Source: a virus. From it: a stretch of 64,000 bases of DNA. The translations under genes were made by a program, and so were the position numbers. The stretch lies in IMG/VR virus record IMGVR_UViG_3300028275_000006, positions 62,001-126,000 of that record; one strand, 5' to 3'. The notes below the pieces were generated by a model, which was given only the letters and a program-made list of their open reading frames with translations, was not told the origin of the DNA and made no database searches. How positions within the stretch are numbered: the first letter of the stretch is position 1; every line of letters starts with the position of its first letter. Shown in pieces: positions 11,155-59,746 of this stretch.

Positions 11155-11155
11155 A

Positions 11156-16815: not shown

Positions 16816-16841
16816 TTTAATGTCCTCCTTAATATATGTAC

Positions 16842-17348: not shown

Positions 17349-17354
17349 GCAAGT

Positions 17355-17383: not shown

Positions 17384-17591
17384 GATCTGTGTCTCGTTTT
17401 TGGTATTGTTCTTCCCAGAGTTTTTGTCTGCGAATGTTTAGTTCTGCTTTATACATGTCCAACAACATAATAATCTGCTGTTGAACTCCAGAGTTACTAG
17501 CGGCCATGAAATATCTTCTACTAAGATCTTGGATCTTAGTTTCAAGTTCCACATCCTTTAGTTTGGAAAAATCTTCTGCTAGTGGGTGCAT
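17358..17591 (-). CDS. Conserved small phage protein
   Basis: 77 residues. MHPLAEDFSKLKDVELETKI, LSRRYFMAASNSGVQQQI and a final RDTDLDSLINVS match a small helical protein that recurs near baseplate/tail genes of T4-like marine phages. No catalytic residues. Its start overlaps the stop of the tail-region gene upstream by 1 bp, so it belongs to the late operon from 18194. Function unknown; possibly an assembly factor. Confidence 0.65.
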   Translation of the reverse strand: MHPLAEDFSKLKDVELETKIQDLSRRYFMAASNSGVQQQIIMLLDMYKAELNIRRQKLWEEQYQKRDTDLDSLINVS

Positions 17592-18172: not shown

Positions 18173-18193
18173 TTTACTGGGTATCCTTTATTT

Positions 18194-18203
18194 GATATTT
18201 ATC
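18194..18203 (-). promoter_or_regulatory. Late promoter (GATAAATATC)
   Basis: Minus strand GATAAATATC starts at the stop codon of the 1040-residue structural gene and lies about 22 nt before the ATG at 18172, with AAAGGAT between as ribosome binding site. Confidence 0.6.
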
Positions 18204-21200: not shown

Positions 21201-21324
21201 TAACTGAAAATGTTACTCCGGTTAAGTCTGCGCTTGGAATTATAGGCAGAGGTATAGTCTGGGTCTGTCGTTCGTTGTAAGTATTAAAACTGTATCCAGA
21301 CGGTTGATTCCATATATTAAGCAT
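18202..21324 (-). CDS. Large virion protein with putative Ig (He_PIG) domains
   Basis: 1040 residues, beta-rich. Several cadherin-like/putative Ig repeats are recognisable by the 'LPxGLxxxxxGxIxGxP' turn: LPSGLRVAYD, LPPGLSMSSTGRITG, LPDGLYIDSDTAEVFG and LPEGLTLKSSGIIEG, spread from about residue 48 to 665. The C-terminal about 250 residues are different (TELKMLIYAGIESKAMPEYIAAI, FNQLDFEIDRFIID) and resemble a conserved cyanophage structural domain. Probably a tail, neck or fibre protein; the Ig-like parts may bind carbohydrate. Own late promoter at 21343-21352. Confidence 0.75.
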   Translation of the reverse strand: MLNIWNQPSGYSFNTYNERQTQTIPLPIIPSADLTGVTFSVIAGNLPSGLRVAYDTNLSTWVIKGSPLEVSTNTTSTFVIRASNGTEISDRTFTMTIAGPDAPVWITPGPNPDIQIYDFDPEATYIPDTVIRHTVSNESTLYRTTTTVSGVTPPNSTYYQVFTEDTGLLPVGPVTTRVSAVVSAKRQSNLVTITTASAHNFVFGNIVTIATNVAAFNAANVEVLQPLPLDGEQYEEYLTRISTTITFNKLGGDLGSQTVSGTVTLIKDPLTFVLDNTPVDFQLEATDTDLSSTDTLEYFIGDGDGELPPGLSMSSTGRITGIIDPILALDVTARTGFYDTNLYDAYAYDFGKRPNIGEEDYLNVVTPRKLNRNYEFIVTVSDGESVARRRFRIYVVGDDFLRTDNTLLQVGNGAYTADSTYLRAPIWLSAANLGLRRANNYVTILLDVFDPNPEVGPVRYELAALNDDLTPSVLPDGLYIDSDTAEVFGFAPYQPAITKEFKFTVNAIKYDKENLTEVEVAIVVADDAPIGQTFLKILPLPEEDVGLLIGDVIRIGPSIYTMTEYISNTVLGGTMATLKLSDALLTNVTDGLIIRKTYNQSVSEFSTQIAPKTFTIAILGEVDSVIQFTTDRILGSIKPSFPSNFYVEATTTVPNAKLRYTLVDGRLPEGLTLKSSGIIEGKINQFRANSISGFTLFDGGDTTFDGDLLTVDRSYRFVVNAQDQFRYSSVSKEFIITISEGTLTLYSNIYTKPLPKQSKRELFYNFINDTTVFTPEKIYRLGDPNYGLQTELKMLIYAGIESKAMPEYIAAISKNIRRKRYRIGNLKKAIAKVQGTNDIVYEVIYLEILDDYEIANKSAASRIKLDRGVNSPTKINQARRNPVDGSLGTVDGNGTVTYGSTYINGKLNEQAFDRFSPMSTPVTIDTANVMVSGNDTEYVYPSSIKNVRANISEVGLTENEFLPLWMTTPQDARTAATGFVKAVPLCYCKPGEGQYILDNIINRNFDFNQLDFEIDRFIIDSDINDVQEKYLKFSDARYNI

Positions 21325-21342
21325 TGTTTAATCCCCGATACT

Positions 21343-21352
21343 GTATTTATCG
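21343..21352 (-). promoter_or_regulatory. Late promoter (CGATAAATAC) inside a small hairpin
   Basis: Minus strand CGATAAATAC lies about 20 nt upstream of the ATG at 21324. It is embedded in CCGATA-AATACAG-TATCGG, a 6-bp inverted repeat. Confidence 0.6.
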
Positions 21353-21372
21353 GTACCGGGAAATTAAATTTA

Positions 21373-22602
21373 TTACCAAGTACCGCCAGTAAATGCTACT
21401 CTGACCCAAATATCGGCTGCGCCGGTTGTATAATCTGCAATACAGCGATAAATGTACGAATTTGTAATAATAACAGTTCCGGCAGCATCTCCAGATGCGC
21501 CCTTAGATGAAGTAGGTGCAGTGGCTGTACTTAATATTAAAGAATCGTTAAGTACAAAATTTCCGCTTACTAGTACACCGTCTCCGTCAAAACTTAGGGG
21601 AATTAGGTCATATGAGCTGGTTCCAGTATTGTAAACTTTAAAGTTTAAACCAGGACTTAGTGCAGGAATTAAGTTGGACTGTGTATATGCTTCTAACTTA
21701 ACTAACTGCTCAGTTGTTGTACCGTTGTTTACTTTAAACTCCATAGCAGAGCCAGATCCTAGCAAATCTAATGCGCGACCATTAATTTCTAATGCTATAG
21801 GACGAGCGCCTGAAGTTGAAGTATCAGTAACCTTTAATAATGTAGGGCTACCAGCAGTTGCATTAAACGTACCGACGCCAGTAACTGTTACATTTCCAAA
21901 TGTAGAAGCACCTGTTACATCGATACCGTTTGAAAAATTAGTGTTAGGAGTTACAGTTAAATCCCCAGAAGTAGTAGTAATGGAACTTGTAACAACACCA
22001 CCAGTAAAACTAGAACCAGTAATAGCGCCGCTAACAGCAAGACTAGTCAGCGTACCAACGCTGGTAATGTTTGTCTGTGCGGCAGTTAATACTGTTCCTG
22101 TTAAATTGCCTGATACATTACCAGTTACATTGCCTGATACATTACCAGTTACATTGCCTGTAAACGTACCTTTAACAACTTCTGCTGGAATTCTTCCGTT
22201 ACCCGAATCAACAAGGAGAGTTGAGTCGCTTGCAAATACATTACCTTCAAGCCACCCATTAAAACCATTAGCATTAACTAGACCAGTAACATTCACGTTA
22301 CCAACATAAGGAGTAGATGTTAAGTTAACAGCGGCACTAAAACTACCAATATTGTTGCCATCGTCAACATATGAAAAGTTTATATTTGTGTGTGTACCTG
22401 TTGCAAATACTGCCGCAACTGCATCTCTTGCGTTTTCGTCTGAAAACGCAGTTACTGATTTGCCACCGGCTGTTCCGTCGATGCCGTTGGTACTGTCGCC
22501 TACATACACTTGCTGAAGTGTTGTATCATAAATTAGTTCGCCTTCGAGGAATTTTCTTGCGGTTCTCTCAGCGGTTGTTCCTCTACGGATTTGTAATGCC
22601 AT
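21373..22602 (-). CDS. Fibre-like virion protein with RRGTTAER N-terminus
   Basis: 409 residues. MALQIRRGTTAERTARKFLEG and ELIYDTTLQQVYVGDS form the N-terminal module found on many marine phage fibres. The shaft is Gly/Asn/Thr-rich with GNVTGNVS octapeptide repeats (about 142-165) and TSVGTLTSLAVSGAITG-type beta-helix repeats. C-terminal about 60 residues (GDAAGTVIITNSYIYRC onwards, ending AFTGGTW) form a small beta domain common in such fibres. Likely tail or baseplate fibre. Shares operon with the two fibre-locus genes upstream. Confidence 0.75.
   Translation of the reverse strand: MALQIRRGTTAERTARKFLEGELIYDTTLQQVYVGDSTNGIDGTAGGKSVTAFSDENARDAVAAVFATGTHTNINFSYVDDGNNIGSFSAAVNLTSTPYVGNVNVTGLVNANGFNGWLEGNVFASDSTLLVDSGNGRIPAEVVKGTFTGNVTGNVSGNVTGNVSGNLTGTVLTAAQTNITSVGTLTSLAVSGAITGSSFTGGVVTSSITTTSGDLTVTPNTNFSNGIDVTGASTFGNVTVTGVGTFNATAGSPTLLKVTDTSTSGARPIALEINGRALDLLGSGSAMEFKVNNGTTTEQLVKLEAYTQSNLIPALSPGLNFKVYNTGTSSYDLIPLSFDGDGVLVSGNFVLNDSLILSTATAPTSSKGASGDAAGTVIITNSYIYRCIADYTTGAADIWVRVAFTGGTW
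22103..22166. repeat. 24-bp tandem repeat coding GNVTGNVS
   Basis: About two and a half copies of a 24-bp unit (on plus: acattgcctgatacattacc plus agtt) encode the octapeptide repeats of the fibre shaft. Such repeats can change copy number by slippage. Confidence 0.6.
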
Positions 22603-22614
22603 TCTATTCTCTCC

Positions 22615-23196
22615 TTATGCTATGGGTCCAGCGTCTATACTTATAGGGCTCGGGTCGGTAAACGTGCCCATGTCCGTTCCAATTTCATTTAACAAATAAG
22701 TAATTGGATCGTAGTACGTAGGTGCAATGGGTCCATAGTCAAATGTATTTACCTGTCTATCTAAAAGTGTTACATCAACAAACGGGTTTTGAGTTGCAGT
22801 TCCGCCGTTTCTAATTAAACCTACAACATTTCCAGTTAAAGTGCCAGAAAATGTAGTGGCTGTAACAGTACTAATGTTATTAATAGCCTGCCCATTAAAG
22901 TCAACTGTAGCCGTTGGATGTAAATCTAACTGCAACACATCTCCTACTAATTGTAATCTTAGTGGTCCTAGCGCATCTAGTTTTCTAAGTTCTAGATTGC
23001 TGTCTGCGTTCTTTTGTTTAAAAACACCTAGTCCTGAAGTGCCTATATTTTCAGCACTAACTGGAGCATAACCGTTGTTGTACAGATATTCAAAGTTAGT
23101 TTTAACTTTTTCAAAGGCTGTACGCAGGTCGTCCCCAGTACCGTCGTTGACGACATTTCCTAGGTTAATCTCTTGTAAATCATCATATAATGCCAT
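22615..23196 (-). CDS. Virion protein with NDGTGD N-terminal module
   Basis: 193 residues from the ATG at 23196 (MALYDDLQEINLGNVVNDG), preceded by AGGAAAAT; an in-frame ATG further upstream lies inside the giant fibre gene. The N-terminal module (VNDGTGDDLRTAFEKVKTNFEYLY) is homologous to that of the 3092-residue protein upstream. The middle (ATTFSGTLTGNVVGLI) looks like a fibre shaft segment, and the C-terminus (DYGPIAPTYYDPITYLLNE) is Pro/Tyr-rich. Probable small fibre or adaptor. Confidence 0.7.
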   Translation of the reverse strand: MALYDDLQEINLGNVVNDGTGDDLRTAFEKVKTNFEYLYNNGYAPVSAENIGTSGLGVFKQKNADSNLELRKLDALGPLRLQLVGDVLQLDLHPTATVDFNGQAINNISTVTATTFSGTLTGNVVGLIRNGGTATQNPFVDVTLLDRQVNTFDYGPIAPTYYDPITYLLNEIGTDMGTFTDPSPISIDAGPIA

Positions 23197-23206
23197 GTTA
23201 TTTTCC

Positions 23207-26200
23207 TTAGAATCTACCAACAACAATCTCAACTAGGCCTTCGCCTAAATCGTCTTTGTTCTCTAAACTCTTACCAATAATAGTTCCTACAGATGGAGTA
23301 TTATTAACTATTGCGTAACCTTTCTTAGCCGCAGTAACTAGAATATCACCTTTCTTAACCTTACCAAGTACTTTACATGGCAAGCGTCCTGTTAGGCCTA
23401 CTGCTAGTGGATGTTTTCCTGCTAAATCAGAGTTCATCAAATGCGCTGGTTTTTCAGAAATAACACCAGCAACTCTAGTATCGTTATGTTTGTCAGTGAC
23501 TGTAATTTCTTCATCACCACCAAATACTACAACAGTACCAGTTTCATATTCTGCATCTGACAAGTATTTTTCAGCCAAGTCAGCGTAACGAGCACTTGTA
23601 GCAGTACCATTGAATAATGTTGCGTATAGTGTGTCGGTAAATGGATTACAATAAATGCCGCCTGTGCCATATACACTATTACCGCTACCCCATAACATTT
23701 GATATGTGCTGTTACTATCGTTGTTATAGTTAATTGTAACTGTACTTGCATTACCTGCAATGTTCATTGACTGTCCGCTAATGAACGAAGCAACTTTTGC
23801 GGCTGTAGCAGAGCGATAGTAGTTATCGCCAAACTTAGCCATTATGTATGTAATGGTGCCACCACTTACATCGTCGCTACTGTTAAAGTAACTGCTGTTA
23901 ATATAACGTCCGTTGAAGTCACCGTTAACGTCACGTGCAACTAATGTGCTTCCTGTGGCCGCACTTGTTGCGTTAGTTTGGATTGTACGTGTTGTACTAC
24001 CATCGTAACTTGAACCAGCAGTGAAACTTAGGTATGTGCTTAGACCCAGTGTACCAGCCAATGTACCAGTAACAGCACCGTAGATAGTTCCACCAACACG
24101 TAGGTCGCCACTGATACCTGCACCGCCTGTAACCTGTAATGTACCAGTACCGTTGGCAGCACCTGTTACTGCTTGGTTAGCAGTTAAGGTTACTGTATCG
24201 TTAGCAGACAACAATTTAAAATAACCATTACCTCGAGTAGTTGCACCAATGTTTACGTTGTTTATTGATCCGACACTGGCCGGAGCAATAGTTACAGTAC
24301 CGGTACCACTTGGACTTAGTGTTACGTTAGCATTAGCAGGACTAAATGTTGTAGTGCTTGCTGATGTTATTGCGTTTGCACTTAAAGTACCAACTGTGGT
24401 AATAGTTGTGCCTGCTGAAGTAGTTCCAACTGCTGTTAAGAAGTCTACAGCACCGGGTGTAGTCATAGTCAGTGTAGTTCCGCTGACGCTTAAGGTCTTA
24501 TAACTACTTGAAGTTAAGTCTAACTGTGCTACAGCAACACGGCCGCTACCATCAGATTGTATCAATGAACTAGCCTGAGCACTTGTACTAATGTTTGTTG
24601 TACTGTAAGCGTTTGGACCAATAGCAGTTAAAATCATTGCACGACCATTGCTACCTACTGATCCTGGAGCAAATGACGCATTCTTAATACCATCGCCGTT
24701 GGTAACAATCTGTCCAGATGTTACTTGACGAGGATATGTAGCACTGCCTGTATTATTACCTAAATAAGTGTCGTTGGCAATATACTGTAATTTAGTTTGT
24801 AATACACCTGTAGTTGTTGAACTGGATGTTTGCAACTCAATCCAACCGTTAGTTGCAGTAAATTCTGTACTCTTGAAACTTGCTAGACCCAAATCTGCCT
24901 GTGCAATACTTGTAGCATTTGCACGAGTAGTTGCTTTATTCATGTCTAACTTACTTTGTGCAATAGCCGCACTAGAATTAACGTCTGCGTTAATAATTAC
25001 ATTAGACTTGATGTTTAAAGCAAGATTTTTAGTTCCAGGAGTCAATGAAGTTTGAATATCGCCTGTGCTAACTGTTTCAGCGTTGATCCATTTAACTCCG
25101 TTATAAACTAATAAATCATTTAAACTTCTTGCTGGACTTGTTGAAGTATCAACTCTGTCATCGCTTAGTTCTTGATTTCTAACATATAACTTGTTAGCCG
25201 CATCTGTATCAGCAGTAGGACTACCTAAGTTAGCAATAACAAATCCGCCCATGTCCATTGGATCTGGACCAGTAAATGTTAACAAACCAGCACGATCCAT
25301 GTAGCCTGGACCAATTAGTGCAGTTGGATCTAGAACGTTATTTGTACGATCCATTCCAAGACGTCTGTCAATGTAACCTTGTGTTGCCGCTTCAGTTGGT
25401 AGCGCATCGTTAGCACCGTCAGTAAATCTATCATCGTTTGAGAATTCACTAACTGTAACACCACGCTTAAATCCTAGACCGTCTAAGTTTGACAACGCAA
25501 TAGATGCCGCAAACGTTACACGACCAGTACCTTGGTCAACTGTAAAGAATCGACCTACACGGAAAATACCGTCTTGGTCTGTGGTTACATAGAAACAACG
25601 TCCTCTTGTACGTTCTGTAACTTCACGTGCTTGGTTAGGTTCTTTTGGAGCACCGTAAATCTTGCTTGGGAAGTTAGTATCGTTATAGCCTCCAGTACCA
25701 ATGTCTAAGAAGTCATGTCCTGTAACACGGCAAGTACTAATACGTACAATAACTTCTGCTGGCTCTGTGCTAGATAAACCTGCACGTAATGTTGGAGGTT
25801 CAGAAATATCCAAGTTAAAGTCTGGATCAACTGGTGTATTAATACCGCTAGCAGATGTTCCTGCTAGACACTTATCAGCGACATCTTCTATTTCAACATA
25901 AGCGTAACCGGCTAATAACCCCATGTCAGTGTAACTTAAAATTTTATGAATCTTGCCATCCCAGGCAGTAATCATATCTCCGGTATTAAGTCTGCTTTCA
26001 ATGTCAGTTTCGTTTACACGGTCGATGGCAATCTTAGTATCACCAGCAGTCGACCCCATAGTCTGTCCAACATTATCTGGATCAGCGTTAGATACATTTT
26101 CTGCATTGACTAGTAATTTTACATAATCGTAAGTTGTATCGAAGCCTAGAATACTTTCGTCTACCGCAAGGTCTTCATTTAATGGACCTTTGTTACCGTA

Positions 26201-29200
26201 TGCTAACACACGATAAACAATAGCACCTGCATCGGGATCACCGACGAATGTCAATGCAGTACTTGGACGAACCGGGTTAGTGTCATCGACTTCGTAGAAC
26301 TTAAAGTTTTGGTTACTGCGAATAATAATTGGTTGGTCATGTGACAATGCTACGGCCAAGCCGTTTGTAGCAGTATCATTATTACCGCCAGTGTTGATGT
26401 TTAGACGTAGAACGTTGCCTAGGCCCCATAGGCTAGCCAAACCGCCTGCCCATGTTCCAGGATTGGTACTGTACTCTAGTGTAACACTAGATGTTGTACT
26501 AGCGGTAGCAGTATATACACCGTTAAACCCAGAAGTTGTTGATCCACTAACTGTGTAAGGTACACCAATTCTTGGTGTATATGGTTCAGCAGTGAACGAA
26601 TATGTTACGTAATATTTTCCGCCTGTTGGCCCAGTCTTAAGTGGTGTTCCAGAAACAGACTGTGCCAAGGTACTTGAAACATCAGTTACACCTGCAACTT
26701 CGTAACGAGCAATACCGTTACCAATAATAGTTTTAACAGTGATAAAGAAGCCCGAACCTGTTCCGCCTACGTTTGTATTACTGCAACTTAAAATATCACC
26801 TTCGCTGTATCTAATACCTGCGGCAACTAAACCTACAGTAGTTACTACACCTCCTGACACAACAATGTTAGCAGTGATACCACTACCAGTTCCGCCTGTT
26901 AACGGAACATTAATATATGTGCCGTTGGTATAACCACTACCACCGATTAAACTAGTTGCGTCTAGTTCTGTAACAACGCCAGCGCCGTGGTTAATTTCAA
27001 CTTCAGATACGTTGTATGGTGAGTAATCATGTTGGTAGAAAAATACCTGTAAATCACCAACATCGTTGTCTGTGCTATAAATTCCTTGTTTGTAAACACG
27101 AGCAACCTGCATCATGTTGTCTGACAAGTTACACTTATCTGGAACTTCTAATGGATCACTACCTTCAGAAATAATACCATACTCGCCGTGTGCGTTAGAA
27201 CCGTTCAATGAACGAATCTGTCCACCGTTGTTGGCATAATAAGCAGTCCAGCAATAGTAACTGAACACAGAAACTGTTTCAATCAAACCAATGTTTGTAG
27301 CAACCAGTCCATAACCTAAGTCGTTAATCTGTGTAAAGTCATTTGAACACATACTGGTGTTACCAGCACTTAGTAGCATAAAGTCTTTTACATACTCTAT
27401 GGTAGTAGTGCCAGTGCCAAATGCACCCGGGTCACTTGGATAACGTAGTGTCATCGAAGTTAGTGTAGATGCTACACACTCTACAGCATCATTGTTATAG
27501 TTAGAGTTGCTGTTGCCAAACACTCTATAACGTGTTTTAGTTCTAGGAGCAGTAGTTCCAACGGGCGTAACAATGCTGAATACTACATCGTAAGATCCAT
27601 CCCCGACGCCCGAGTCTGCCTTGCTAGTGAAGGTAGAAATAGTATATTCTAAGTCGTTAGTTACAGGAGTAGTTGTAGAAAGAACTAATCTGTATGTTGG
27701 GTAAACGATAGGTTTGGCACCAGTTAATACTGTTGAAACATCTACTTCCGGGTCTGTAATAACTTCGTTTAATAAATCAAACAACTGTCCTGCTCGTGTA
27801 ACAAATGCAGAGCCGTCGTAGTCAGAACTGAATACCTGTGATACTCTATTCTCTACAGCAACATCGTTAATAACTTGATAATTTAATGTTGGTGGAACTT
27901 GATTCAATACAGCCTGTGCAACTTCCTTGGCATAGGCAAATGAATCTAATGTTTGTGATAATTGATTTTCTAATACAACACGGCTACTAGCAGTACCTAC
28001 ATAGTAACGCTGTGCGGCACGAATTGTTAAGTATGTTCCGCCATATAACAAGTCTGCTGAAACTGCGGCAACAATAAAGCCAACGTCTCGTGAACAAATT
28101 TCTTCATTGTAAACTAATGTGTTTGTATAATTAGCATCGATATAATTTGTTACAGCAGTTTGTAAAGTTGACTTAGCACTTTGTAGTGCAGAATTTGCAC
28201 CAGTTAAGCCAGCACTTACCCAAGCAGTACTTGGAGTAATTGTTGAAGGAACAGAACCGAGCCCAAGGTCGATAATTGTTAAAATTTCTCCAATACGCTG
28301 TCCAGCAGTAGCACTGGCAGAACTGTTACCTGGAGTACCGCGAACCTGCGCAACACCACCTTGTAATGCAGTAATAGGTAAGTCTAATGCAATGTCTTCA
28401 ACTAGACTTTGTAGATAACCATATGCGGCCAATGTTGCTGGTTTCTCAGGAGCCGCAACTTGTAGAGTTGTGTAAGAATAATAAGCCTTACCAGCAATCA
28501 ATGTTTGAATGTTACCACCGTAGGTTAGGTCGTGATATAGTGCATCTAAAATGTATTCTGTATCACGTAAGCATACAGCAGGGTCATAACTTAATCCAAC
28601 ATAGTTGTTAGAAATATATTGAATTACTTCTGCTTTAATAAATTCTCTGTTAGATTCAATCAGTGTTCTAGCACGATTATAATTTACATCGTAGCCTGTT
28701 GGATCAGGAGTTACGATTGCAGGTTCTTGAGTTAGTCCGTTAGTAATAACATCTAAGAACATATTCATGTTGGTAGTTACACTAGTAACTGCGGTAGCAC
28801 TTGCACTAACAACAGATAATATTTCATCTCTTAAGAAAGTAAATGCGTCAATAGTTGCGGCTTTTTGTACGCCAACAGCCACAGCGGCTGAAGCTCTGTA
28901 ATAAGATCTTGCCGCTGTAATTGTCTGGAAGTTGCCGCCAAACATTAAGTCGTAACCAATAGCATCAATTACATAACCCACGTCACGTTGACATGTAGCA
29001 GAATCATAGGTAAATCCTACATATTTGTTGTTAATGTAGTTAATAACTTCTGCTTTGATAAAATCTTTATTATCGACTAACAATGCACGAGCACCACGAG
29101 CACTTGGCGGATTTTCTAAAATGCCAATGAACTCGTCAAACAAATCTTGAATAGTTGCTTCTGCTAAGCCGCCATCGGTAATATCGGTATCGATATACTG

Positions 29201-32200
29201 TAGAACAGATTGTTGATATCGTACTGTTGGATCTTCGTTATTAATAACATTTAATATCAATGTTTCAATGTAGTTAATAGCCGCAAGTGTGTTGGCCAAC
29301 TGCTGGTCAATAACAATCTTAGAACTAGCACTAGCATTGAAGTATGCTAGAGCTGCCTGAACTGTTTTTAAATTACCGCTATAATAAATGTCGTGTGCAA
29401 TAGCATCGCAGATGTATCCAGTGTCACGAGCACAAGTATCTTGGTTGTAACTATATCTTTGTTGTAGATAAACTAATGTGTCAGACTTGATACTTTCTTT
29501 GTTGTTTAACAATAATGTTCTGCTGTCTGTTAACGAACCAGACACACTATAGAAAGTTGGATATTCAATAGTAGGAGCCGCTTCACGTCCGCTTAAAATA
29601 ATAGTATTAATGTAGCCCATTAACACACCTACTCTAGCAGATTCAGTTGCGCTACCTGGATTAACTAAATCAAATACCTGTGTTACAGCACTTTGTTTAG
29701 GGAACGGAACAGGAGTATTAGTAACAACTAACTGTGCAACACCACTGGCATAGGCCAATGCTTCTGTGGTTTGCAATGTTTGTCCAGGAATTTGCAAACT
29801 TCCGTTACCATCGTAATATTGATATCCGGCTTCTACAGTTGCCGAGTTACCTTCATATAGTAAGTCGTAAACAATAGAATTTAAAATGTATGCCGCATCT
29901 CGACGACACTTGTCTTCGTCGTAGACAAAGTCTGGATATTCTTCAGCAATCCAGGCAATAATTTCTTCTTTAATAAATTCAATGTTATCTAAAATAAGAT
30001 TTTTTGCATTTACTCTTGAAGTAGGAGCACCTGACGGATCTGACCATGTAATTGTATCTGATGAAATAATACCGTTAGCAATGATATCTGTTATCTCATC
30101 AAAACTTGCTTCTGCTCTTAGACGTGCAACAGAGTTACCGGCTAATACATCAGAAATTAATGTTCTTGTATAGATTAACGCATCTAAGTATTCATCTTTT
30201 TGGTCTGGAAGAATACTGTATTGTGTGCCGCGATAGTATGATTGTCCAGCACGTACAGCATTAAAGTTTGTACCTAGTGCTAGATCGTAACCTAGTGCAT
30301 CAACAATCAATCCAACGTCACGAGCACATTTGGTTTCGTTGAATGTAAATGGTGGACTTAGTTCTGTATTAATATAACCAATAACTTCTGCTTTGATAAA
30401 GTCGATGTTTCGACGAATTAATTTTCTAGCATTTCCATAGCCGTTGCCGTCATCAGTGTATGCTTCAACTTTAAAAGTTCTTCCGTCAATAACAAATGAG
30501 CAAGGAGTTGTTGGAGCACGTTCACTGCCTGTTACTAGGAATTCTGTGTCGCTGATTTTTTCTTGAATCTTAAGAGGAACGTTACCAGCAAAGCCGTCAA
30601 CATACTGTCCACCAGCAAAACGTTGTTTGTTTAGTGATCCTGCAAAAGAACCGGACTGTTGAATATATGCAGACTTGGTTAAAATTTGACCTTCTGGGTC
30701 AAGTACCATCATAAAGCCGCCGTGGCCTTGACAGGTAATCTGACGAATAATAACAGCATCGTTACATAAGAATACGTCAAGGTCTCTGTTGTTCTTTGGT
30801 TCACTTAAAATATCAGACGGGTCTGTTAGATAGTGATAACCGTATTCTGTGCTGGTTAAAGTTAATCCGTCAAATGTTTTATCTCTACGGAACCAAACGT
30901 CAACCCATGGACTGCGACTTGGGCGGTCCGCTGGACGAACAATACATCTACGCAATTCGTCACCAACGATAGCAACGTTTGGCGGGACACGAATTGGATA
31001 GTCTTCAAAATAGATACCAGATTCAACAACAATACTAATTTGGATATTTTTAACTGCTTGGTCAAACTCTAGGTTTTCGCCAGGCACAAAATCACCAATA
31101 ACATCCTGCAAGTCAAAATAGTCTTCGCCGATACTTGAACTACCATCGGAGCCATAGTATTGATAAATGAAACCCTGTGCGCCGCTGGTACGTCCAACAA
31201 CAATCTTACCGGAGACAATATCTGGTTTTGGTAATTGACCTTGGTCAACACGAGAACCACCGTTGTTAGTAAAGTAAACACGAGTAGTACCAGATGCACC
31301 AGATTCAATTCTTGTAACTTCAGAGAACGCTTCACCGCCACCGTAGGCAATTAACTGACGATAAGGACCAGTTTCCCATGGTGCATCATTTACTAATTGT
31401 TCTGCTTTTTGACAGGCTTTGTTAATACTTGCATAAGCATAAGAACGATCGCGTCCTTCTTTTCCACGCGGTGTACGTGCCTGTGTGTCGTCACCGCCTG
31501 TGGTAACGTACAAGTTAAATCTGCTTGAATAACTTGAATTATCTACATAATATTTTGTAGCGGCTTGTAAGTCATCTTCTCCGTTAGGCGTACCAGCACC
31601 TGCAAGTCCGCCTGGATGATCTGCTAAGTTTAGCACACCAGTCATATCGCCGCCAGTTTTTAATACAACTTCTGCGGCACGTGGTGCTTGGTTACCTGTG
31701 GCGTTTGCTGGCACATTTAAGTGACCAGTCATTGTGTCGCCTGTAATGTTTACATATTTGGAGTCGGCATAACCTTTGTTAATAGCAAAGGAATCTATGC
31801 TATAAAGAGTTTCGTGCTGTGTGTTGAAACTATTAACAGCAGTTTGGAAATCTGTTTGATTAATAGGACTGCGTAAGCCGCCGATTAATTGATTACGTGC
31901 ATCCAGCGCATATTGTAATTTTGGTAATGGGTCGTCCTGTAATTTAGAACTTAATGTATCAATTTTAACGGAACCGTAACTGGTAATAGTACCAGTTGCC
32001 GCACTAGTTGATAAGTTTGTTCCTGCGTTTGTATATACTAGAACATTGTCTACTGTGCCAGTTAACAATAGGGCAGAAGTAGTGTTAAATGAAGTATTGT
32101 CTGTGGACGCGATTGTAACTCGTTGTCCAGGATCTAAATTGTGGTTTGCTGAAAGTGTAATAGTGGCAACGTTGCTACTTCTTGATACACTAACAATATC

Positions 32201-32485
32201 AAAGGTTTCTTGCTCGGAATAATCAAACTGGATAGTACCGTTAGGACTGAAAAAGTCTTTGAATACTAAACTAGTACCAATAGAATTAACTACTGGAATC
32301 TTATTACCTTGTCCTACTAATGTATCAGGAGTATCGCTAAGGTCAGTGAACTTTAAAAATCCGCCTTGACCGAAAACAGCATATAACTCTTGGAAGTTTT
32401 CATTCGTTTTTCTAAACGCTTCACGGATACTATCACCAGTTCCGTCATTACCTGATACGCCGATGTCGACTATTTTACGTGCCAT
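23207..32485 (-). CDS. Giant fibre/virion protein with six helical Cys-Arg-Asp repeats and an autocleavage-like C-terminus
   Basis: 3092 residues from the ATG at 32485 (MARKIVDIGVSGNDGTGD), which has TTGGAG upstream; an earlier in-frame ATG has no such site. Order: NDGTGD N-terminal module (1-40); beta region; a domain opening YVTTGGDDTQARTPRGKEGRD (about 330) as in cyanophage fibres; at about 690-1560 six repeats of roughly 140-160 residues, each with an FIKAEVIxYI helix, a CxRDxGYIxDAIxYDL core and a GGNxxTxxAxxYY end; further beta domains; a long Thr/Ser/Gly shaft; and a C-terminus (ADLAEKYLSDAEYE, then HPLAVGLTGRLPCKVLGKVKKGDI) resembling peptidase-G2/intramolecular chaperone modules of fibres. 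The conserved Cys in each repeat is notable. Probably the main long fibre. Confidence 0.8.
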   Translation of the reverse strand: MARKIVDIGVSGNDGTGDSIREAFRKTNENFQELYAVFGQGGFLKFTDLSDTPDTLVGQGNKIPVVNSIGTSLVFKDFFSPNGTIQFDYSEQETFDIVSVSRSSNVATITLSANHNLDPGQRVTIASTDNTSFNTTSALLLTGTVDNVLVYTNAGTNLSTSAATGTITSYGSVKIDTLSSKLQDDPLPKLQYALDARNQLIGGLRSPINQTDFQTAVNSFNTQHETLYSIDSFAINKGYADSKYVNITGDTMTGHLNVPANATGNQAPRAAEVVLKTGGDMTGVLNLADHPGGLAGAGTPNGEDDLQAATKYYVDNSSYSSRFNLYVTTGGDDTQARTPRGKEGRDRSYAYASINKACQKAEQLVNDAPWETGPYRQLIAYGGGEAFSEVTRIESGASGTTRVYFTNNGGSRVDQGQLPKPDIVSGKIVVGRTSGAQGFIYQYYGSDGSSSIGEDYFDLQDVIGDFVPGENLEFDQAVKNIQISIVVESGIYFEDYPIRVPPNVAIVGDELRRCIVRPADRPSRSPWVDVWFRRDKTFDGLTLTSTEYGYHYLTDPSDILSEPKNNRDLDVFLCNDAVIIRQITCQGHGGFMMVLDPEGQILTKSAYIQQSGSFAGSLNKQRFAGGQYVDGFAGNVPLKIQEKISDTEFLVTGSERAPTTPCSFVIDGRTFKVEAYTDDGNGYGNARKLIRRNIDFIKAEVIGYINTELSPPFTFNETKCARDVGLIVDALGYDLALGTNFNAVRAGQSYYRGTQYSILPDQKDEYLDALIYTRTLISDVLAGNSVARLRAEASFDEITDIIANGIISSDTITWSDPSGAPTSRVNAKNLILDNIEFIKEEIIAWIAEEYPDFVYDEDKCRRDAAYILNSIVYDLLYEGNSATVEAGYQYYDGNGSLQIPGQTLQTTEALAYASGVAQLVVTNTPVPFPKQSAVTQVFDLVNPGSATESARVGVLMGYINTIILSGREAAPTIEYPTFYSVSGSLTDSRTLLLNNKESIKSDTLVYLQQRYSYNQDTCARDTGYICDAIAHDIYYSGNLKTVQAALAYFNASASSKIVIDQQLANTLAAINYIETLILNVINNEDPTVRYQQSVLQYIDTDITDGGLAEATIQDLFDEFIGILENPPSARGARALLVDNKDFIKAEVINYINNKYVGFTYDSATCQRDVGYVIDAIGYDLMFGGNFQTITAARSYYRASAAVAVGVQKAATIDAFTFLRDEILSVVSASATAVTSVTTNMNMFLDVITNGLTQEPAIVTPDPTGYDVNYNRARTLIESNREFIKAEVIQYISNNYVGLSYDPAVCLRDTEYILDALYHDLTYGGNIQTLIAGKAYYSYTTLQVAAPEKPATLAAYGYLQSLVEDIALDLPITALQGGVAQVRGTPGNSSASATAGQRIGEILTIIDLGLGSVPSTITPSTAWVSAGLTGANSALQSAKSTLQTAVTNYIDANYTNTLVYNEEICSRDVGFIVAAVSADLLYGGTYLTIRAAQRYYVGTASSRVVLENQLSQTLDSFAYAKEVAQAVLNQVPPTLNYQVINDVAVENRVSQVFSSDYDGSAFVTRAGQLFDLLNEVITDPEVDVSTVLTGAKPIVYPTYRLVLSTTTPVTNDLEYTISTFTSKADSGVGDGSYDVVFSIVTPVGTTAPRTKTRYRVFGNSNSNYNNDAVECVASTLTSMTLRYPSDPGAFGTGTTTIEYVKDFMLLSAGNTSMCSNDFTQINDLGYGLVATNIGLIETVSVFSYYCWTAYYANNGGQIRSLNGSNAHGEYGIISEGSDPLEVPDKCNLSDNMMQVARVYKQGIYSTDNDVGDLQVFFYQHDYSPYNVSEVEINHGAGVVTELDATSLIGGSGYTNGTYINVPLTGGTGSGITANIVVSGGVVTTVGLVAAGIRYSEGDILSCSNTNVGGTGSGFFITVKTIIGNGIARYEVAGVTDVSSTLAQSVSGTPLKTGPTGGKYYVTYSFTAEPYTPRIGVPYTVSGSTTSGFNGVYTATASTTSSVTLEYSTNPGTWAGGLASLWGLGNVLRLNINTGGNNDTATNGLAVALSHDQPIIIRSNQNFKFYEVDDTNPVRPSTALTFVGDPDAGAIVYRVLAYGNKGPLNEDLAVDESILGFDTTYDYVKLLVNAENVSNADPDNVGQTMGSTAGDTKIAIDRVNETDIESRLNTGDMITAWDGKIHKILSYTDMGLLAGYAYVEIEDVADKCLAGTSASGINTPVDPDFNLDISEPPTLRAGLSSTEPAEVIVRISTCRVTGHDFLDIGTGGYNDTNFPSKIYGAPKEPNQAREVTERTRGRCFYVTTDQDGIFRVGRFFTVDQGTGRVTFAASIALSNLDGLGFKRGVTVSEFSNDDRFTDGANDALPTEAATQGYIDRRLGMDRTNNVLDPTALIGPGYMDRAGLLTFTGPDPMDMGGFVIANLGSPTADTDAANKLYVRNQELSDDRVDTSTSPARSLNDLLVYNGVKWINAETVSTGDIQTSLTPGTKNLALNIKSNVIINADVNSSAAIAQSKLDMNKATTRANATSIAQADLGLASFKSTEFTATNGWIELQTSSSTTTGVLQTKLQYIANDTYLGNNTGSATYPRQVTSGQIVTNGDGIKNASFAPGSVGSNGRAMILTAIGPNAYSTTNISTSAQASSLIQSDGSGRVAVAQLDLTSSSYKTLSVSGTTLTMTTPGAVDFLTAVGTTSAGTTITTVGTLSANAITSASTTTFSPANANVTLSPSGTGTVTIAPASVGSINNVNIGATTRGNGYFKLLSANDTVTLTANQAVTGAANGTGTLQVTGGAGISGDLRVGGTIYGAVTGTLAGTLGLSTYLSFTAGSSYDGSTTRTIQTNATSAATGSTLVARDVNGDFNGRYINSSYFNSSDDVSGGTITYIMAKFGDNYYRSATAAKVASFISGQSMNIAGNASTVTINYNNDSNSTYQMLWGSGNSVYGTGGIYCNPFTDTLYATLFNGTATSARYADLAEKYLSDAEYETGTVVVFGGDEEITVTDKHNDTRVAGVISEKPAHLMNSDLAGKHPLAVGLTGRLPCKVLGKVKKGDILVTAAKKGYAIVNNTPSVGTIIGKSLENKDDLGEGLVEIVVGRF
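28080..30420. repeat. Six diverged about 0.45-kb protein-level repeats within the giant fibre gene
   Basis: Repeat starts fall near 30413, 29985, 29515, 29090, 28670 and 28180 (reading leftward). They are clear at protein level (CxRDxGYI...YDLxxGGN) but diverged at DNA level, showing old internal duplication. Confidence 0.7.
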
Positions 32486-32513
32486 TGAATACTCCAAAAA
32501 AGACTTTGTATCC

Positions 32514-32523
32514 AATATTTAGC
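32514..32523 (-). promoter_or_regulatory. Late promoter (GCTAAATATT) of the giant fibre gene
   Basis: Minus strand GCTAAATATT lies about 28 nt upstream of the ATG at 32485, a two-base variant of TATAAATA shared with the fibre promoter at 59688-59697. Confidence 0.55.
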
Positions 32524-54427: not shown

Positions 54428-54643
54428 TCAAAGGCGGTATGTAATTCGGCCTTTGGACAAATCGTAAGGGCTCATTTCAATCCGAACTTTGTCGCCCAAG
54501 ATGATTTTGATTTTATTTTGGCGCAGTCGGCCATTAGTGTAGCAAGTAAGAACATGCCCATTTTCCAAAGTTACCCTAAACATATTGCTAGGTAATACTT
54601 CAGAAATGGATCCTTCCATTTCTAATAAATCGCTTTTGCTCAT
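54428..54643 (-). CDS. infA: Translation initiation factor IF-1
   Basis: 71 residues, as in E. coli (72). [20 protein letters not shown], then [20 protein letters not shown], then [21 protein letters not shown] can be aligned along the full IF-1 S1/OB fold; the E. coli counterpart reads [20 protein letters not shown] and ends [13 protein letters not shown]-like. IF-1 binds the 30S A site and tunes initiation fidelity. A phage-encoded copy is rare. Overlaps the AbrB-like gene by ATGA, so made from the same mRNA, which is predicted leaderless. Confidence 0.93.
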
Positions 54644-54813
54644 TCTTTAGTAAAGATCATACGACCATCGGTTACGGAGATATGAATTTTATCTCCTTCT
54701 TTCCATCCCATTTTTTCACAGATTTCAGGAGGAATTTTGAACATGACATTATCTGGATCTCCAGGTATGTCTTCGAATATTTCCTCTACCGTGTACGTTT
54801 TTGATTCGTTCAT
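54640..54813 (-). CDS. Small AbrB/MazE-like (SpoVT-fold) protein
   Basis: 57 residues, below the usual length cut-off for gene calls. [22 protein letters not shown] followed by [13 protein letters not shown] is the swapped-hairpin AbrB pattern ('xxxIPxExxxxLGxxxGDxxxxxxxxxxxxi'), usually a DNA-binding dimer or the antitoxin of toxin-antitoxin pairs. It overlaps infA by 4 bp. The ATG is 7 nt after a TAAACT -10 box. It may autoregulate the infA operon (inference). T4-like phages carry comparable small SpoVT proteins. Confidence 0.8.
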
Positions 54814-54852: not shown

Positions 54853-57507
54853 TTAGTTTACCGATATATTGACATTTGGTGCAGGAAATATCCCCAAACG
54901 CACATTCATAGTCAGCGCCGATTGGGTGTTAATAGTTATTGGTAATGATGCGGTATTACTGCTAACCGTCATTACTCCAGTTAATGGAACACTAACATCA
55001 CCAGCCGCAAATGGATATGTTGCTACAGTAGTAGACCAACGAGCGTTAACTCCTGTATGTACATCAACTTGATTAGGAGTGGCTTCGTAAAAGACTGCTT
55101 CGTAAACCATATTAGGTGAACCTAGTGTGCCAGATGTAGACGCTGTTCCCTCCCAGCGAACACGGAAAGTTCTGTTAGGTGCTGTGCCTTCTGCACCATA
55201 ATAGATTCGTTGACAACTATTGTCTGCAGAACTTATCATTATCTTTGGATAAGGAGGGTTAGTACCATTTAACTGACTCCAGTTTGATGAACCAGCACCA
55301 AATGTGATATATGTATTTGTTCCAATATAAATTGTATTGTATGTTGTACCACAGAATGTTACATTGAACGGCAGTGGAACAGTCCAGTATCCATCGTCTT
55401 GACTGCCAACAAAGGTCAACGCTCCAGGCACAGTAGGTGTTGAACTAGACAATGCTAGGGCACCTAATATACTATTTGTAATAACACTACTGGAACCGTT
55501 AGGTAAACCAGTAGTTAAGAATCTATTTCCGCTGTTAGGTCTTGTATCTAAAGTTATACCAGTAACTATAGCATCAGCAGTATAAACACCAGAGAACGCA
55601 GTAGTAGTCAATGAACCGGACGGCGCAGGCTTTGCTGTAATAATATAAGGAACCTGTGTACCATTAGCAACGTTAGTAGTAGTTAATGTTACTGTAGCAG
55701 TTTGAGTATTTGATACTGTTGAATCGTCTACTGCTAGACTAAATGTTGCGGCCTTATTATAACTGTTAAGAGTTTTCTTTCTTGGATATACTTGTCCACT
55801 GGTAGGTCTGTACCAGTTGTTTACTGTTGGGAAAGGTGTTGGATAATATCCACCGACTTCTTGACCTGGATGTCTTGTTCCTTGAAAGAACAACATCTTT
55901 CTACAACTATTTGGATTGTAAGTAAACCCAGCATCTTTACCATCAAACGTTCCGCCGTTGGTACTTAATACTGTGTCTGTACTAATTGCGGCTATTAATG
56001 CACGAGCATCTGCCTGTGTCATACGAGGATATTTTTCTGCATAACAGGCAATTACACCTACGGTATTAGGACAACTCATACTAGTGCCAGGACACTTTTT
56101 AAAATTATTATTAATTGAGTCAGATCCGCCTAATGCAGTAACTCTTGGATCAGTAGCGGCAGTCCCATCATACAACGATGCTCCACTATTCCAAACACTT
56201 TGAACACCAGAACCGGGTGCATATACATCAATGCGAGGACCGTAGTTACTAAATTCTGCTTTGTAGTCGCCGACCTCAATACCAGTCGAGGCGTAGATAC
56301 TAGCATTTGTTGCTTCGTTGTGTTGTCCTATTGCTCCGCTACAGATAATTTTTGTATCTTCTGTGCCACCATTTGCCGAGCCAGGACTACTACCTCGGTG
56401 AATATAGTAACTAACTCCTCCGTAGACCATATAATTGTCATAGTCAGGACCTCCAGGAACATCTATATACCAATAACTATTTCCTGCGCTGGCTACAATG
56501 ATGACGCCTTCGCTCATCGCCTCAATCATATCTATATCCGTTGCGGAACTTTGTGTTGGCAATGCCGCACCAGTACGGATCCTAAATGTGTCTAAATCTG
56601 CTGTAGTCCATCCTGTACTAGGACGATTATATGTAACACCTCTATAATACACAGAACTAATGCTAGACTCTGTAATTCCATTTAAACGATATCCCCAACT
56701 GTTATTCATAACTGTTGGATTTTTAACACCAGTCAACGGATTGATTGGTTTATTTTTATGAAATTCTCTTACATAATCTATGCTATCGTAGAATGTAATA
56801 TTATAGATATTAGCATCGCGAGCAAACCCTTGTGTGTTACCTGCACAGTTTCCAGTAGTATGTCCACCATGTTCTTGTAATCGGTAACCCGGATAACTGT
56901 ATTCGCCTGCCGCACCACCAGTTACTACAGGATTGTGTTGCTCCCAGTTGTATTCAACCATTCGGCTATAACCAGTACCATCTGGATTCTGTGCATATTC
57001 GTACACAGTAGGGTACGGAGTTCCATCGTCCATAACAACTACGTCAACATTTTTACCACTGGCATCCATAATAATAGTTGCCGCTTGATTAACTGTGCCA
57101 GTAATACCCCAATTACTAATATCTGTTTTTCTGTTTAGTCGTAACAGGCCCCAGTTGATATCGACGCTGTCGCTGGCCACACGTTTGTCAAAGTTTGAAC
57201 TAGTTTGAGTAAACCCGTCACAGCCGATAACCATACCAAGATCTGTATGATTTAATTCAACAGTAAAAACTCTAGGATCGTTTCTAACCTGTGCCGCTTC
57301 GTCATAGGTCAACATATAATGTGTATTTCGACTAATAGGTCGTCTGTTAACACACTCTACCATTCGATCAGGAATGTATAAATTTCCGCTAGGTGTTTCC
57401 ATATCTTTATAAAACTCTTCCGAGTCTTTAAAGTCTTTTAAGGTAACAATGTATTCTTTAAGACTTTGATCTTCTGGATTCCCTAGATGAGGAATTGGTG
57501 TTGTCAT
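54853..57507 (-). CDS. Subtilisin-like serine protease (S8) with beta-sandwich C-terminus, virion locus
   Basis: 884 residues. Catalytic triad in order: Asp in VDVVVMDDGTPYP (about 155), His in LQEHGGHTTGNCAG (about 214), Ser in GTSMSCPNTVGVIACYAEKYP (about 474); the oxyanion Asn is in VMNNSWG and VASAGN lies before it. No Sec signal. Residues about 600-884 are beta-rich, with FSLAVDDSTVSNTQTATVTL, GYWTVPLPFNVTFCGTTYNTIYIG and a Thr/Ser-rich end, like virion appendage domains. Two nt after the fibre gene in a late operon. Suggests a particle-bound protease that may act on the host surface, or a maturation protease. Confidence 0.88.
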   Translation of the reverse strand: MTTPIPHLGNPEDQSLKEYIVTLKDFKDSEEFYKDMETPSGNLYIPDRMVECVNRRPISRNTHYMLTYDEAAQVRNDPRVFTVELNHTDLGMVIGCDGFTQTSSNFDKRVASDSVDINWGLLRLNRKTDISNWGITGTVNQAATIIMDASGKNVDVVVMDDGTPYPTVYEYAQNPDGTGYSRMVEYNWEQHNPVVTGGAAGEYSYPGYRLQEHGGHTTGNCAGNTQGFARDANIYNITFYDSIDYVREFHKNKPINPLTGVKNPTVMNNSWGYRLNGITESSISSVYYRGVTYNRPSTGWTTADLDTFRIRTGAALPTQSSATDIDMIEAMSEGVIIVASAGNSYWYIDVPGGPDYDNYMVYGGVSYYIHRGSSPGSANGGTEDTKIICSGAIGQHNEATNASIYASTGIEVGDYKAEFSNYGPRIDVYAPGSGVQSVWNSGASLYDGTAATDPRVTALGGSDSINNNFKKCPGTSMSCPNTVGVIACYAEKYPRMTQADARALIAAISTDTVLSTNGGTFDGKDAGFTYNPNSCRKMLFFQGTRHPGQEVGGYYPTPFPTVNNWYRPTSGQVYPRKKTLNSYNKAATFSLAVDDSTVSNTQTATVTLTTTNVANGTQVPYIITAKPAPSGSLTTTAFSGVYTADAIVTGITLDTRPNSGNRFLTTGLPNGSSSVITNSILGALALSSSTPTVPGALTFVGSQDDGYWTVPLPFNVTFCGTTYNTIYIGTNTYITFGAGSSNWSQLNGTNPPYPKIMISSADNSCQRIYYGAEGTAPNRTFRVRWEGTASTSGTLGSPNMVYEAVFYEATPNQVDVHTGVNARWSTTVATYPFAAGDVSVPLTGVMTVSSNTASLPITINTQSALTMNVRLGIFPAPNVNISVN

Positions 57508-57508: not shown

Positions 57509-59668
57509 TTATGCTTCCAATTGTAGTAGTTTTACTGTAACAGTAATAGCCGCTGTTGAGCCGCTTCTGTTAACTACTTTAATTTGTATATCTGTAGTTG
57601 GACTAGATTCATCGTTATAGCCAAATACACCAGGAGTAAATGTTTGTGTTTGTGCTCCGGTAGTAATTACCTCAGCAATTACTCCACTACCTGGTACTGG
57701 ATCATCTGTAATTGCACGACTAGCATCTGCTGTACGTGCCGCAGAAGATGTATAAACAGTTACCCAAGCCGCCGCACTAGTTTGAATACTTAATAACGCA
57801 TAACCACTGAAGCCTGTAATTGTAGCATTAGCACTGGCTAAGTTTGCTATCGAAGAAGTAGTAACAGAACGTGTTGTTCTGGTCGATAGTGTACCACCGC
57901 CGCCCCCGCCACCAGTTGCATCGGTATCATTAACCCATGCACTACCATTCCATTTTAAAACTTGCCCAACACTTGGACTAGAAACAGTCACATCTGCCAG
58001 GTCATTAATACTGGCCGTAGAAATATCTGTGCCACCACCTCCGCCGCTAATTGTTGTCCATGCCAATGTTCCTGAACCGTTTGTTGCTAGAACTTGTCCA
58101 CTGGTTCCGTCTGTGGCTGGGAATGTGAACCCTGGAAATCTTGTTGTGCCGTTTTCTTTGAATACCCATGTAGGCTTGGTAATATCGTTGAACGTTTGAA
58201 TATAGATATCGTTCTCAGCATATAGCCCCCAACCAATAGTTGGACCTGCTAGGAATTCTTTCCAACCAACTGATGCTTGTCCATTGGCAGCACTGCCTGC
58301 ATTAATAATACCGTTGTTAGGTAGTGTTACTGAACCGTCTGTATTAAATGTAAAATCTTTAGTACCGTTTGTAGTTAATTTAACACCGGTATTATTTAAA
58401 ATAATTTTATTAGTATATGCGCTATGACTTACACCCCAGTTAAGTGTAATGCTACCTGCGGTATCGGCAACATTAATGGCAAACGGGTCGTTAGTATTTC
58501 TTGTATATCCGTCCACAGCCAATGTACCGTTGTCAAATGCAATAGTGCCACCTGCTGGTAATGTTAGAGTACCATCGTCTCCAAATATCCAACCATGCAC
58601 GGTTGCACCATAGTTACCAGTTGAAATCTTTACTGCCTTTAATCCATCGGAATCAGAATTAAAGCCAATGGTCGCCAAATCGAGACCGTTAGAAGATGTC
58701 CAGCCTACTAATATCTGAGAATTATTACCCGGTGCCGCAATATGTATTGATTCATTTAGTGCCTGAATCATCATCGTTCCGAGACTTGGGCTATAGTCGC
58801 CTAACTTAGCAATTTTTAAATTAGTAGGAAAATCTAACGCACCGTCTGTACCAAATGACCAAGTATTAGTACTATTAGTAATCGAAGGAGTTGTGACGTC
58901 TGCAAATTCTACGCTATCTGTTGTGTTTAAATTTTGATTAGGTGCATCTAACAAATCGTTATAACTTACACTCTGACCAATAGTTGCACTTAAAGTGGTA
59001 GCAGTTGCTTGACAGCGAACAGCGAAAGGAATCTGTTGCCAATCGGACGCTACAAAGGAGGCAAACGGATCAGTTACGCCACCGATGTAAACATACATAT
59101 AATCTGTACAGATTGTAGCAACATCAACAACTCCATTGATATCGCTGTCAGAATAGTGGTTACCGCCAGTGTCTACGGTGGCGCCGCTGATATAACCATC
59201 AGCATCTAATGTTGCAGAATACGTTGCTCTGATCCATCCATAGGGAACAGTTAGTTGTGTACCACCTAATACTGCCCATGCAAAAGCATCGATTAATTTA
59301 ACATTTAAAGCGTTCCCCCATGTTCTGTCTTGTACTGGACCTGCTTTGGGATAGACTTCAACTGCTTGGTGTCCAGTAGGATCATAAACACCAGGAAGAA
59401 TAACCTGTCCATTAGTAGTTGCTGATAGTTTGGCATCGCCAATATACACAGATCCAGAACCAACATATAAACTGTGCCAACGATTTGTAGGGCTACCTAA
59501 GTTGTATGTTAAATCACTGTCTGGAACAATATTTTGTGATACTGCTGAAAAGTCACCTTCTGGAATTGTAGTGTACAATTCTCCGATCATTGTATCAATC
59601 TTTTTTAAGGCTGATCCTAACGGTTCTCTACTAATGCCGTCGCCTAAATTTAATGGTGTATATGCCAT
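57509..59668 (-). CDS. Fibre-like virion protein
   Basis: 719 residues. The N-terminal module LNLGDGISREPLGSALKKID TMIGELY (split here) resembles the 'NDGTGDxxRxAFxKxxxNFxxLY' anchors of other virion proteins in this window. NIVPDSDLTYNLGSPTNRWHSLYVG is a fibre-type peptide. The shaft has repeats GDDGTLTLPAGGTI, NTDGSVTLPNNGII, and FKENGTTRFPGFTFPATDG, plus GGGGG linkers; the C-terminus (AITVTVKLLQLEA) is beta-rich. Late promoter at 59688-59697. Probably a tail fibre or its adaptor. Confidence 0.75.
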   Translation of the reverse strand: MAYTPLNLGDGISREPLGSALKKIDTMIGELYTTIPEGDFSAVSQNIVPDSDLTYNLGSPTNRWHSLYVGSGSVYIGDAKLSATTNGQVILPGVYDPTGHQAVEVYPKAGPVQDRTWGNALNVKLIDAFAWAVLGGTQLTVPYGWIRATYSATLDADGYISGATVDTGGNHYSDSDINGVVDVATICTDYMYVYIGGVTDPFASFVASDWQQIPFAVRCQATATTLSATIGQSVSYNDLLDAPNQNLNTTDSVEFADVTTPSITNSTNTWSFGTDGALDFPTNLKIAKLGDYSPSLGTMMIQALNESIHIAAPGNNSQILVGWTSSNGLDLATIGFNSDSDGLKAVKISTGNYGATVHGWIFGDDGTLTLPAGGTIAFDNGTLAVDGYTRNTNDPFAINVADTAGSITLNWGVSHSAYTNKIILNNTGVKLTTNGTKDFTFNTDGSVTLPNNGIINAGSAANGQASVGWKEFLAGPTIGWGLYAENDIYIQTFNDITKPTWVFKENGTTRFPGFTFPATDGTSGQVLATNGSGTLAWTTISGGGGGTDISTASINDLADVTVSSPSVGQVLKWNGSAWVNDTDATGGGGGGGTLSTRTTRSVTTSSIANLASANATITGFSGYALLSIQTSAAAWVTVYTSSAARTADASRAITDDPVPGSGVIAEVITTGAQTQTFTPGVFGYNDESSPTTDIQIKVVNRSGSTAAITVTVKLLQLEA

Positions 59669-59687
59669 GGGAAATCCTCGCTTATCC

Positions 59688-59697
59688 TATATTTAGC
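59688..59697 (-). promoter_or_regulatory. Late promoter (GCTAAATATA) in a small hairpin
   Basis: Minus strand GCTAAATATA about 20 nt before the ATG at 59668. CTCGCT and AGCGAG (59695-59700 and 59677-59682 on plus) flank it as a 6-bp inverted repeat. Confidence 0.6.
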
Positions 59698-59722
59698 GAG
59701 TTTTGGTATAGATACAATAGTC

Positions 59723-59746
59723 AAAAAAATACCCGCCGAAGCGGGT
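59723..59746 (-). terminator. Intrinsic terminator after the exonuclease operon
   Basis: Minus strand ACCCGC-TTCG-GCGGGT followed by ATTTTTTT: 6-bp GC-rich stem with a UUCG-type tetraloop and T-run, 12 bp past the stop at 59759. It separates early from late transcription. Confidence 0.92.

Follow-up and report, generated by a model that had tools for sequence, protein, structure and literature searches.

The subtilase locus

The window, the 64,000-nucleotide stretch analysed here, spans positions 62001-126000 of a 212,542-bp virus record. On its minus strand, a fibre-like gene is directly followed by a gene for a subtilisin-like protease of the peptidase S8 family. The features of this locus are:

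59722-59745, minus strand: terminator-like hairpin CCCGC-TTCG-GCGGG with a T-run, parting the gene pair from the upstream gene (read from the sequence)
59690-59696, minus strand: T4-type late promoter-like CTAAATA, 28 bp before the fibre ATG (motif enrichment)
57509-59668, minus strand: partner fibre-like gene, 719 aa, with a variable N-terminal part (phrog_9627 and phrog_15343 at the C-terminus; linkage)
57512-57856, minus strand: conserved C-terminal "adaptor" domain, the last 115 aa of the fibre protein (alignment; linkage)
54853-57507, minus strand: subtilase gene, 884 aa, peptidase S8 (ORF; PF00082; phrog_9158)
57253-57459, minus strand: predicted I9-like propeptide, residues 17-85 (AF2 pLDDT about 86-95; PF05922 sub-threshold)
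55873-57153, minus strand: catalytic domain, about residues 119-545 (AF2 pLDDT mostly above 90; proteinase K-type fold)
57028-57030, minus strand: catalytic Asp160 (conserved in 88/88)
56869-56871, minus strand: catalytic His213 (conserved in 88/88)
56479-56481, minus strand: oxyanion Asn343 (conserved in 88/88)
56080-56082, minus strand: catalytic Ser476 (conserved in 88/88)
54856-55746, minus strand: beta-rich C-terminal region, residues 588-884 (AF2; tblastn to S-SRM01; higher dN/dS)

An earlier note on this DNA had identified an 884-residue subtilisin-like protease at 54853-57507, and this identification is confirmed by both PF00082 (Peptidase_S8; E=6.1e-18, 65.6 bits against a curated cut-off of 21.8) and PHROG 9158 (E=4.5e-85 over residues 13-667), with the gene on the minus strand, from an ATG at 57507 to a TAA stop. 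The protease domain is the only clear Pfam domain of the protein, and the Pfam domain search detected no secretion domain. No other S8 protein was found across the 212,542-bp record, and a 270-kb IMG/VR contig holds an identical subtilase protein. The family is already annotated in cyanophages, either as subtilisin-like protease or as hypothetical protein.

The two genes appear to be expressed late. Of 187 ORFs, 37 have TAAATA in the 60 nt upstream, versus 5 with its reverse complement; the heptamers CTAAATA and ATAAATA head, or tie for the head of, the permuted-heptamer lists, with baseplate and fibre-like genes among the ORFs they precede. The CTAAATA before the fibre gene fits a T4-type late promoter, and the presence of a motif of this kind, enriched before structural genes, supports the earlier description of the subtilase as a late protein. 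An inverted repeat, CTCGCT...AGCGAG (59677-59700, minus strand), brackets the motif in the 5' leader of the fibre gene.

Two small ORFs lie beyond the subtilase. One encodes a phage-borne IF-1 (window 54428-54643, minus strand; PF01176, 5e-23) that is nearest to those of Lak and other jumbo phages, and the other, between the subtilase and IF-1 and overlapping the IF-1 start, is an AbrB/MazE-like ORF of 57 aa (window 54640-54813, minus strand). IF-1 also follows the subtilase in five distinct loci (L006, L007, L008, L017 and L058), three of which keep the AbrB/MazE-like ORF (L006, L007 and L017), and IF-1-like starts occur in three more (L107, L118 and L119).

The active site is intact and conserved

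We aligned the window protein with subtilases from 14 Kyanoviridae and 73 IMG/VR loci. Asp160, His213, Asn343 and Ser476 are each invariant in all 88 sequences (80 distinct), and they follow the Asp-His-Ser order, with an oxyanion Asn, of peptidase S8. Identity to the window subtilase is as low as about 28-45% for many relatives, and the invariance therefore cannot be put down to chance. The catalytic region has a dN/dS of 0.04-0.06 wherever computable, in comparisons with three relatives that are 83-87% identical, some of these comparisons being saturated at synonymous sites. Taken together, the 88/88 conservation and the dN/dS values rule out a chance or degenerate catalytic motif. The earlier note had reported the intact triad and oxyanion Asn, and had held that its reading would suffer if the catalytic residues were not conserved; no such loss was seen at any of the four positions. 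As judged by these comparisons, the active site is intact and conserved, and purifying selection on the catalytic region is strong. A protein that merely retains the subtilase fold while serving as a non-catalytic adhesin would suit the tip slot and the swapped C-termini described below, but the four invariant residues, many of them in sequences at 28-45% identity, and a dN/dS of about 0.05 make such a role barely credible.

A proteinase K-type fold with an I9-like propeptide

Residues 1-590 were modelled with AlphaFold at a pLDDT of 85.9 and a pTM of 0.78, from an alignment of 61 sequences. The closest PDB matches to this model are proteinase K-type enzymes (2b6n; Foldseek E=5e-17, TM 0.81 by target length), which places the predicted catalytic domain in the subtilisin fold, and among the matches are structures determined together with the propeptide. 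Residues 17-85, which precede the catalytic domain, are predicted to adopt the beta-alpha-beta-beta-alpha-beta layout of the I9 fold, with strands at 17-23, 52-55, 61-66 and 80-85 and helices at 26-37 and 68-74 (DSSP of the model). In the window subtilase, PF05922 (Inhibitor I9) scores below its curated cut-off (14.9 versus 21.2 bits); it is also the commonest family at E<=1 in the N-termini, again sub-threshold, with 16 hits and a best E of 0.0053 among 37 sequences. Because the layout is predicted while the Pfam match is sub-threshold, we describe the modelled N-terminal propeptide as I9-like and not as a Pfam I9 member.

Fibre gene and subtilase form a near-obligate module

The ORF directly upstream of the subtilase bears the adaptor domain in 70/71 IMG/VR loci, these being the loci with a complete subtilase start among the matches listed, near-duplicate contigs included. 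In the same 71 loci, the end of this ORF falls between 20 bp inside the subtilase gene and 8 bp before its start, and the commonest spacing is 1 bp (42 loci). Contigs from a MAG-binned genome collection that carry a subtilase relative have the adaptor followed by the subtilase in 6/6 cases. Reciprocally, when viral contigs were searched with the ~115-aa adaptor alone, a subtilase came next in 77/79 copies with downstream room, in a set that comprises the best 80 of at least 577 matches, leans to the window type and includes near-duplicate contigs. Confirmed matches in the two collection scans number at least 557 and at least 577. Like this large, uncultured water-borne phage, hundreds of other aquatic phages have the pair. 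Such linkage to fibre genes (70/71 and 77/79) is one mark of a virion-associated fibre enzyme, and on this evidence the fibre gene and the subtilase form a near-obligate two-gene module. Adaptor and subtilase are not inseparable, since L226 and S-CRES1 have an adaptor with no neighbouring subtilase.

When 64 complete partner proteins were compared pairwise, 85% of pairs were recognisably alike over the C-terminal 110 aa, against 22% over the N-terminal 90 aa, a pattern that would be expected if an exchangeable virion anchor were joined to a fixed docking domain. The locus had been described earlier as a tail-fibre operon. What stands is a two-gene unit of fibre (57509-59668) and protease, but it is not this genome's main tail operon. 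In five relatives (L010, L012, L013, L018 and L019), the subtilase does lie inside the main fibre operon; in L010, L012 and L013 a second subtilase sits close behind the first, its identity to the nearest cyanophage relative being only about 36%.

The linkage bears on whether the subtilase could be an intracellular late protease, acting in head maturation, lysis or host takeover and placed beside a fibre gene by accident. No secretion domain was found and the protease is the only clear Pfam domain, as such an enzyme would have it. However, the same fibre domain accompanies the subtilase across Kyanoviridae, the uncultured jumbo lineage and MAG contigs, mostly with 1-bp spacing, and the linkage is thus no coincidence; we consider an intracellular role very improbable.

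Alternative occupants and swapped C-terminal domains

The adaptor does not always precede a recognizable subtilase. In S-BM3, Sf-CH1b and a second S-H9-1 locus, it is followed, after 1 bp, by an unrelated family of ~600-770 aa that has no Pfam match and no S8 match, and whose relatives occur in S-SCSM1 (gp140) and ACG-2014i. S-CAM1 has the adaptor and then a very diverged subtilase. Because the same adaptor precedes alternative occupants, the slot after it is probably a tip position. The unrelated family replaces the subtilase at L139:3844-6141, L140:3847-5673 and L039:1572-3875. A second class of C-terminus is seen in the partner proteins of P-SSM2, S-SCSM1, S-T4 and Sf-CH5.

The subtilase itself varies beyond its catalytic domain. 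From about residue 588, mostly beta strands are predicted (AF2, pLDDT mostly 65-90), in keeping with the beta-rich C-terminus that had been noticed in the 884-residue protein; these strands were read from a full-length, shallow-alignment run in which the catalytic half has a pLDDT of 49, and a PDB search with that model returned only meaningless immunoglobulin-type matches. The region evolves faster, with a dN/dS of about 0.10-0.15 against the same three relatives, and it is absent in S-H38, Sf-FR1 and S-CREM1. In S-SCSM1 the C-terminus carries lectin domains, and in ACG-2014h it has a weak cupredoxin-like match (Pfam). A 286-aa protein of S-SRM01, which lacks a protease domain, contains a counterpart of residues 702-807 (tblastn, 47%); its gene takes the corresponding slot, with a "baseplate wedge" ORF immediately before it and a large ORF after it. 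These comparisons indicate that the C-terminal domain of the subtilase is swapped between phages, being lectin, cupredoxin-like or missing altogether.

A virion location is suggested by analogy with S-SCSM1, in whose record both the subtilase (gp144) and its partner (gp145) are labelled virion protein. We counted 47 such labels, against 45 virion proteins reported from virion mass spectrometry (PMC9602691), so the label very probably denotes detection by mass spectrometry. The earlier proposal of a protease carried on the particle gains indirect support from these labels, as well as from the fibre-gene coupling, the late-type motif and the swapped C-terminal domains, and the subtilase may be present on this virion.

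These data also bear on fibre maturation, in which the subtilase would cleave its partner fibre (for example by removing the C-terminal domain as a folding chaperone) or other tail proteins during assembly, and would perhaps stay on the particle only as a remnant. Phage fibres with cleaved C-terminal chaperones exist, and both the strict coupling to one conserved fibre domain and synthesis in the cytoplasm with a propeptide would suit such an enzyme. Yet the adaptor does not always need this protease, because the unrelated non-S8 family takes the same place in other cyanophages; fused lectin and other binding domains suit an outward-facing enzyme better; and the catalytic protein of S-SCSM1 is labelled virion. 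We therefore regard maturation as unlikely, though it is the foremost of the alternatives.

The module is shared between cyanophages and a jumbo lineage

The kinship of the subtilase raised the possibility that this is a cyanophage, which we reject. The DNA polymerase is nearest to that of Sinorhizobium phage Phosso (50%) and then Atu_ph07 (47%), ClpA is nearest to that of Phosso (46%), and neither psbA nor psbD has a match in this genome or in the 270-kb sibling contig. By its core genes the phage falls outside Kyanoviridae and within the Phosso/Atu_ph07/Rak2-like jumbo lineage. The ClpA-like ATPase (window 5475-7715, minus strand; phrog_4871, 1.9e-250) is typical of Rak2-like jumbo phages. 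Other large contigs that carry the gene pair have DNA polymerases 66-80% identical to the one in this genome.

The earlier note had proposed a survey of related phages, and the module is present both in Kyanoviridae cyanophages and in this uncultured jumbo lineage. Kyanoviridae sequences are scattered through the subtilase tree, at several points among environmental ones, the deeper nodes being weakly supported, and one fully supported clade unites S-H38 and S-CREM1 with L079, a contig that has a jumbo-type polymerase. Because of this scatter and this mixed clade, the module probably moved between phage lineages.

Three other features of the lineage were seen in passing. Outside the window, L053 encodes a CTA-anticodon tRNA (L053:13927-14000, minus strand; ARAGORN: Pyl) near a cluster of 31 tRNAs, possibly an amber suppressor. 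A relative contig (G004) has an in-frame TAG inside its DNA polymerase gene, and stop-codon recoding in this jumbo lineage is possible. Very large ORFs of 3102 aa (window 23207-32515, minus strand) and 4694 aa (G000, 9907-23991, plus strand) are probably structural.

A protease-tipped fibre as the proposed role

We propose, with confidence somewhat above even, that the module encodes a modular fibre tip in which a zymogen-type subtilase, docked on the fibre, cuts host surface proteins during adsorption. The variable N-terminal part of the fibre protein would serve as its anchor on the virion, and the conserved C-terminal domain would dock the subtilase encoded by the next, translationally coupled gene. 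The subtilase would be a late cytoplasmic product, a zymogen that bears an I9-like propeptide and presumably processes itself; the swapped C-terminal beta domain may help to hold or aim it. Its active site would cut host surface proteins, allowing the fibre to reach, or commit to, its receptor. Here, docking to the adaptor is suggested by gene linkage, and host surface proteins are a putative substrate. Among the three roles first suggested (cutting host surface proteins, aiding fibre maturation and degrading S-layer-like barriers), the cutting of host surface proteins fits best, fibre maturation is the main rival, and nothing in the data speaks for or against S-layer digestion in particular. 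Alternatively, the enzyme could destroy receptors or aid release, by freeing particles from debris or decoy proteins or by limiting re-binding at lysis. This would be compatible with all of the linkage and conservation data, but nothing specific points to it, and we think it improbable.

A broader reading, which we hold at slightly less than even confidence, is that widespread, horizontally exchanged fibres with a self-activating protease-zymogen tip act as a "protein depolymerase" on aquatic bacteria, breaching or remodelling their protein coat, and are common to T4-like cyanophages and the uncultured jumbo lineage. Fibre-tip enzymes known so far act mostly against glycans or peptidoglycan. 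If the broader reading is right, proteolysis joins the means by which phages act on the cell surface, through a common, catalytically intact protease locked to one fibre domain. The two-gene module offers a concrete test object in cultured cyanophages and helps to annotate hundreds of environmental contigs, their relatives at present being called hypothetical or baseplate proteins. It might also supply phage-made proteases whose targeting domains can be exchanged.

Comparison with known systems

The open-access literature that we searched contained neither an account of a phage fibre bearing a subtilase nor any description of the three aspects we consider new: the near-obligate fibre-protease module, the alternative tip occupants and the sharing with a jumbo lineage. 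The closest known relatives are the PHROG 9158 subtilases of Kyanoviridae (S-H38, Sf-FR1, S-CREM1, S-RSM4 and P-SSM2 T4-GC292), which belong to the same family over the propeptide and catalytic domain (about 29-44% identity, tblastn), have the same catalytic residues and sit in the same place, right after a fibre-type gene. They differ in having another C-terminal domain or none, and their carriers are T4-like cyanophages, whereas the window comes from a jumbo phage whose core is not of cyanophage type. S-SCSM1 gp144 is likewise homologous and lies directly after a fibre-type virion protein, but it is 1411 aa long, with ConA/laminin-G lectin domains, and its partner has the second class of adaptor C-terminus.

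Atu_ph07 gp329 (Polybotosvirus) is an S8 protein of a cultured jumbo phage; its gene lies two genes away from one annotated as tail fibre, a position that accords with the proposed role. It is distant from the window subtilase, with no tblastn match at 1e-5, and no adaptor domain was found in the neighbouring genes tested. The proteinase K-type subtilases (2b6n, aqualysin) and the pro-subtilisin structures share the catalytic fold and active site. Proteinase K-type enzymes are secreted with signal peptides, whereas the window subtilase is encoded by a phage, shows no detected secretion domain and has a large beta-rich tail region.

In concept, the module recalls the polysaccharide depolymerases of tailspikes and tail fibres and the gp37-gp38 pairs of T4-like phages, in which a tip enzyme or adhesin is encoded with the fibre. 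The T4 gp38-type adhesin family is absent among the Pfam matches at E<=1. Compared with the depolymerases, the window subtilase would cut protein instead of glycan.
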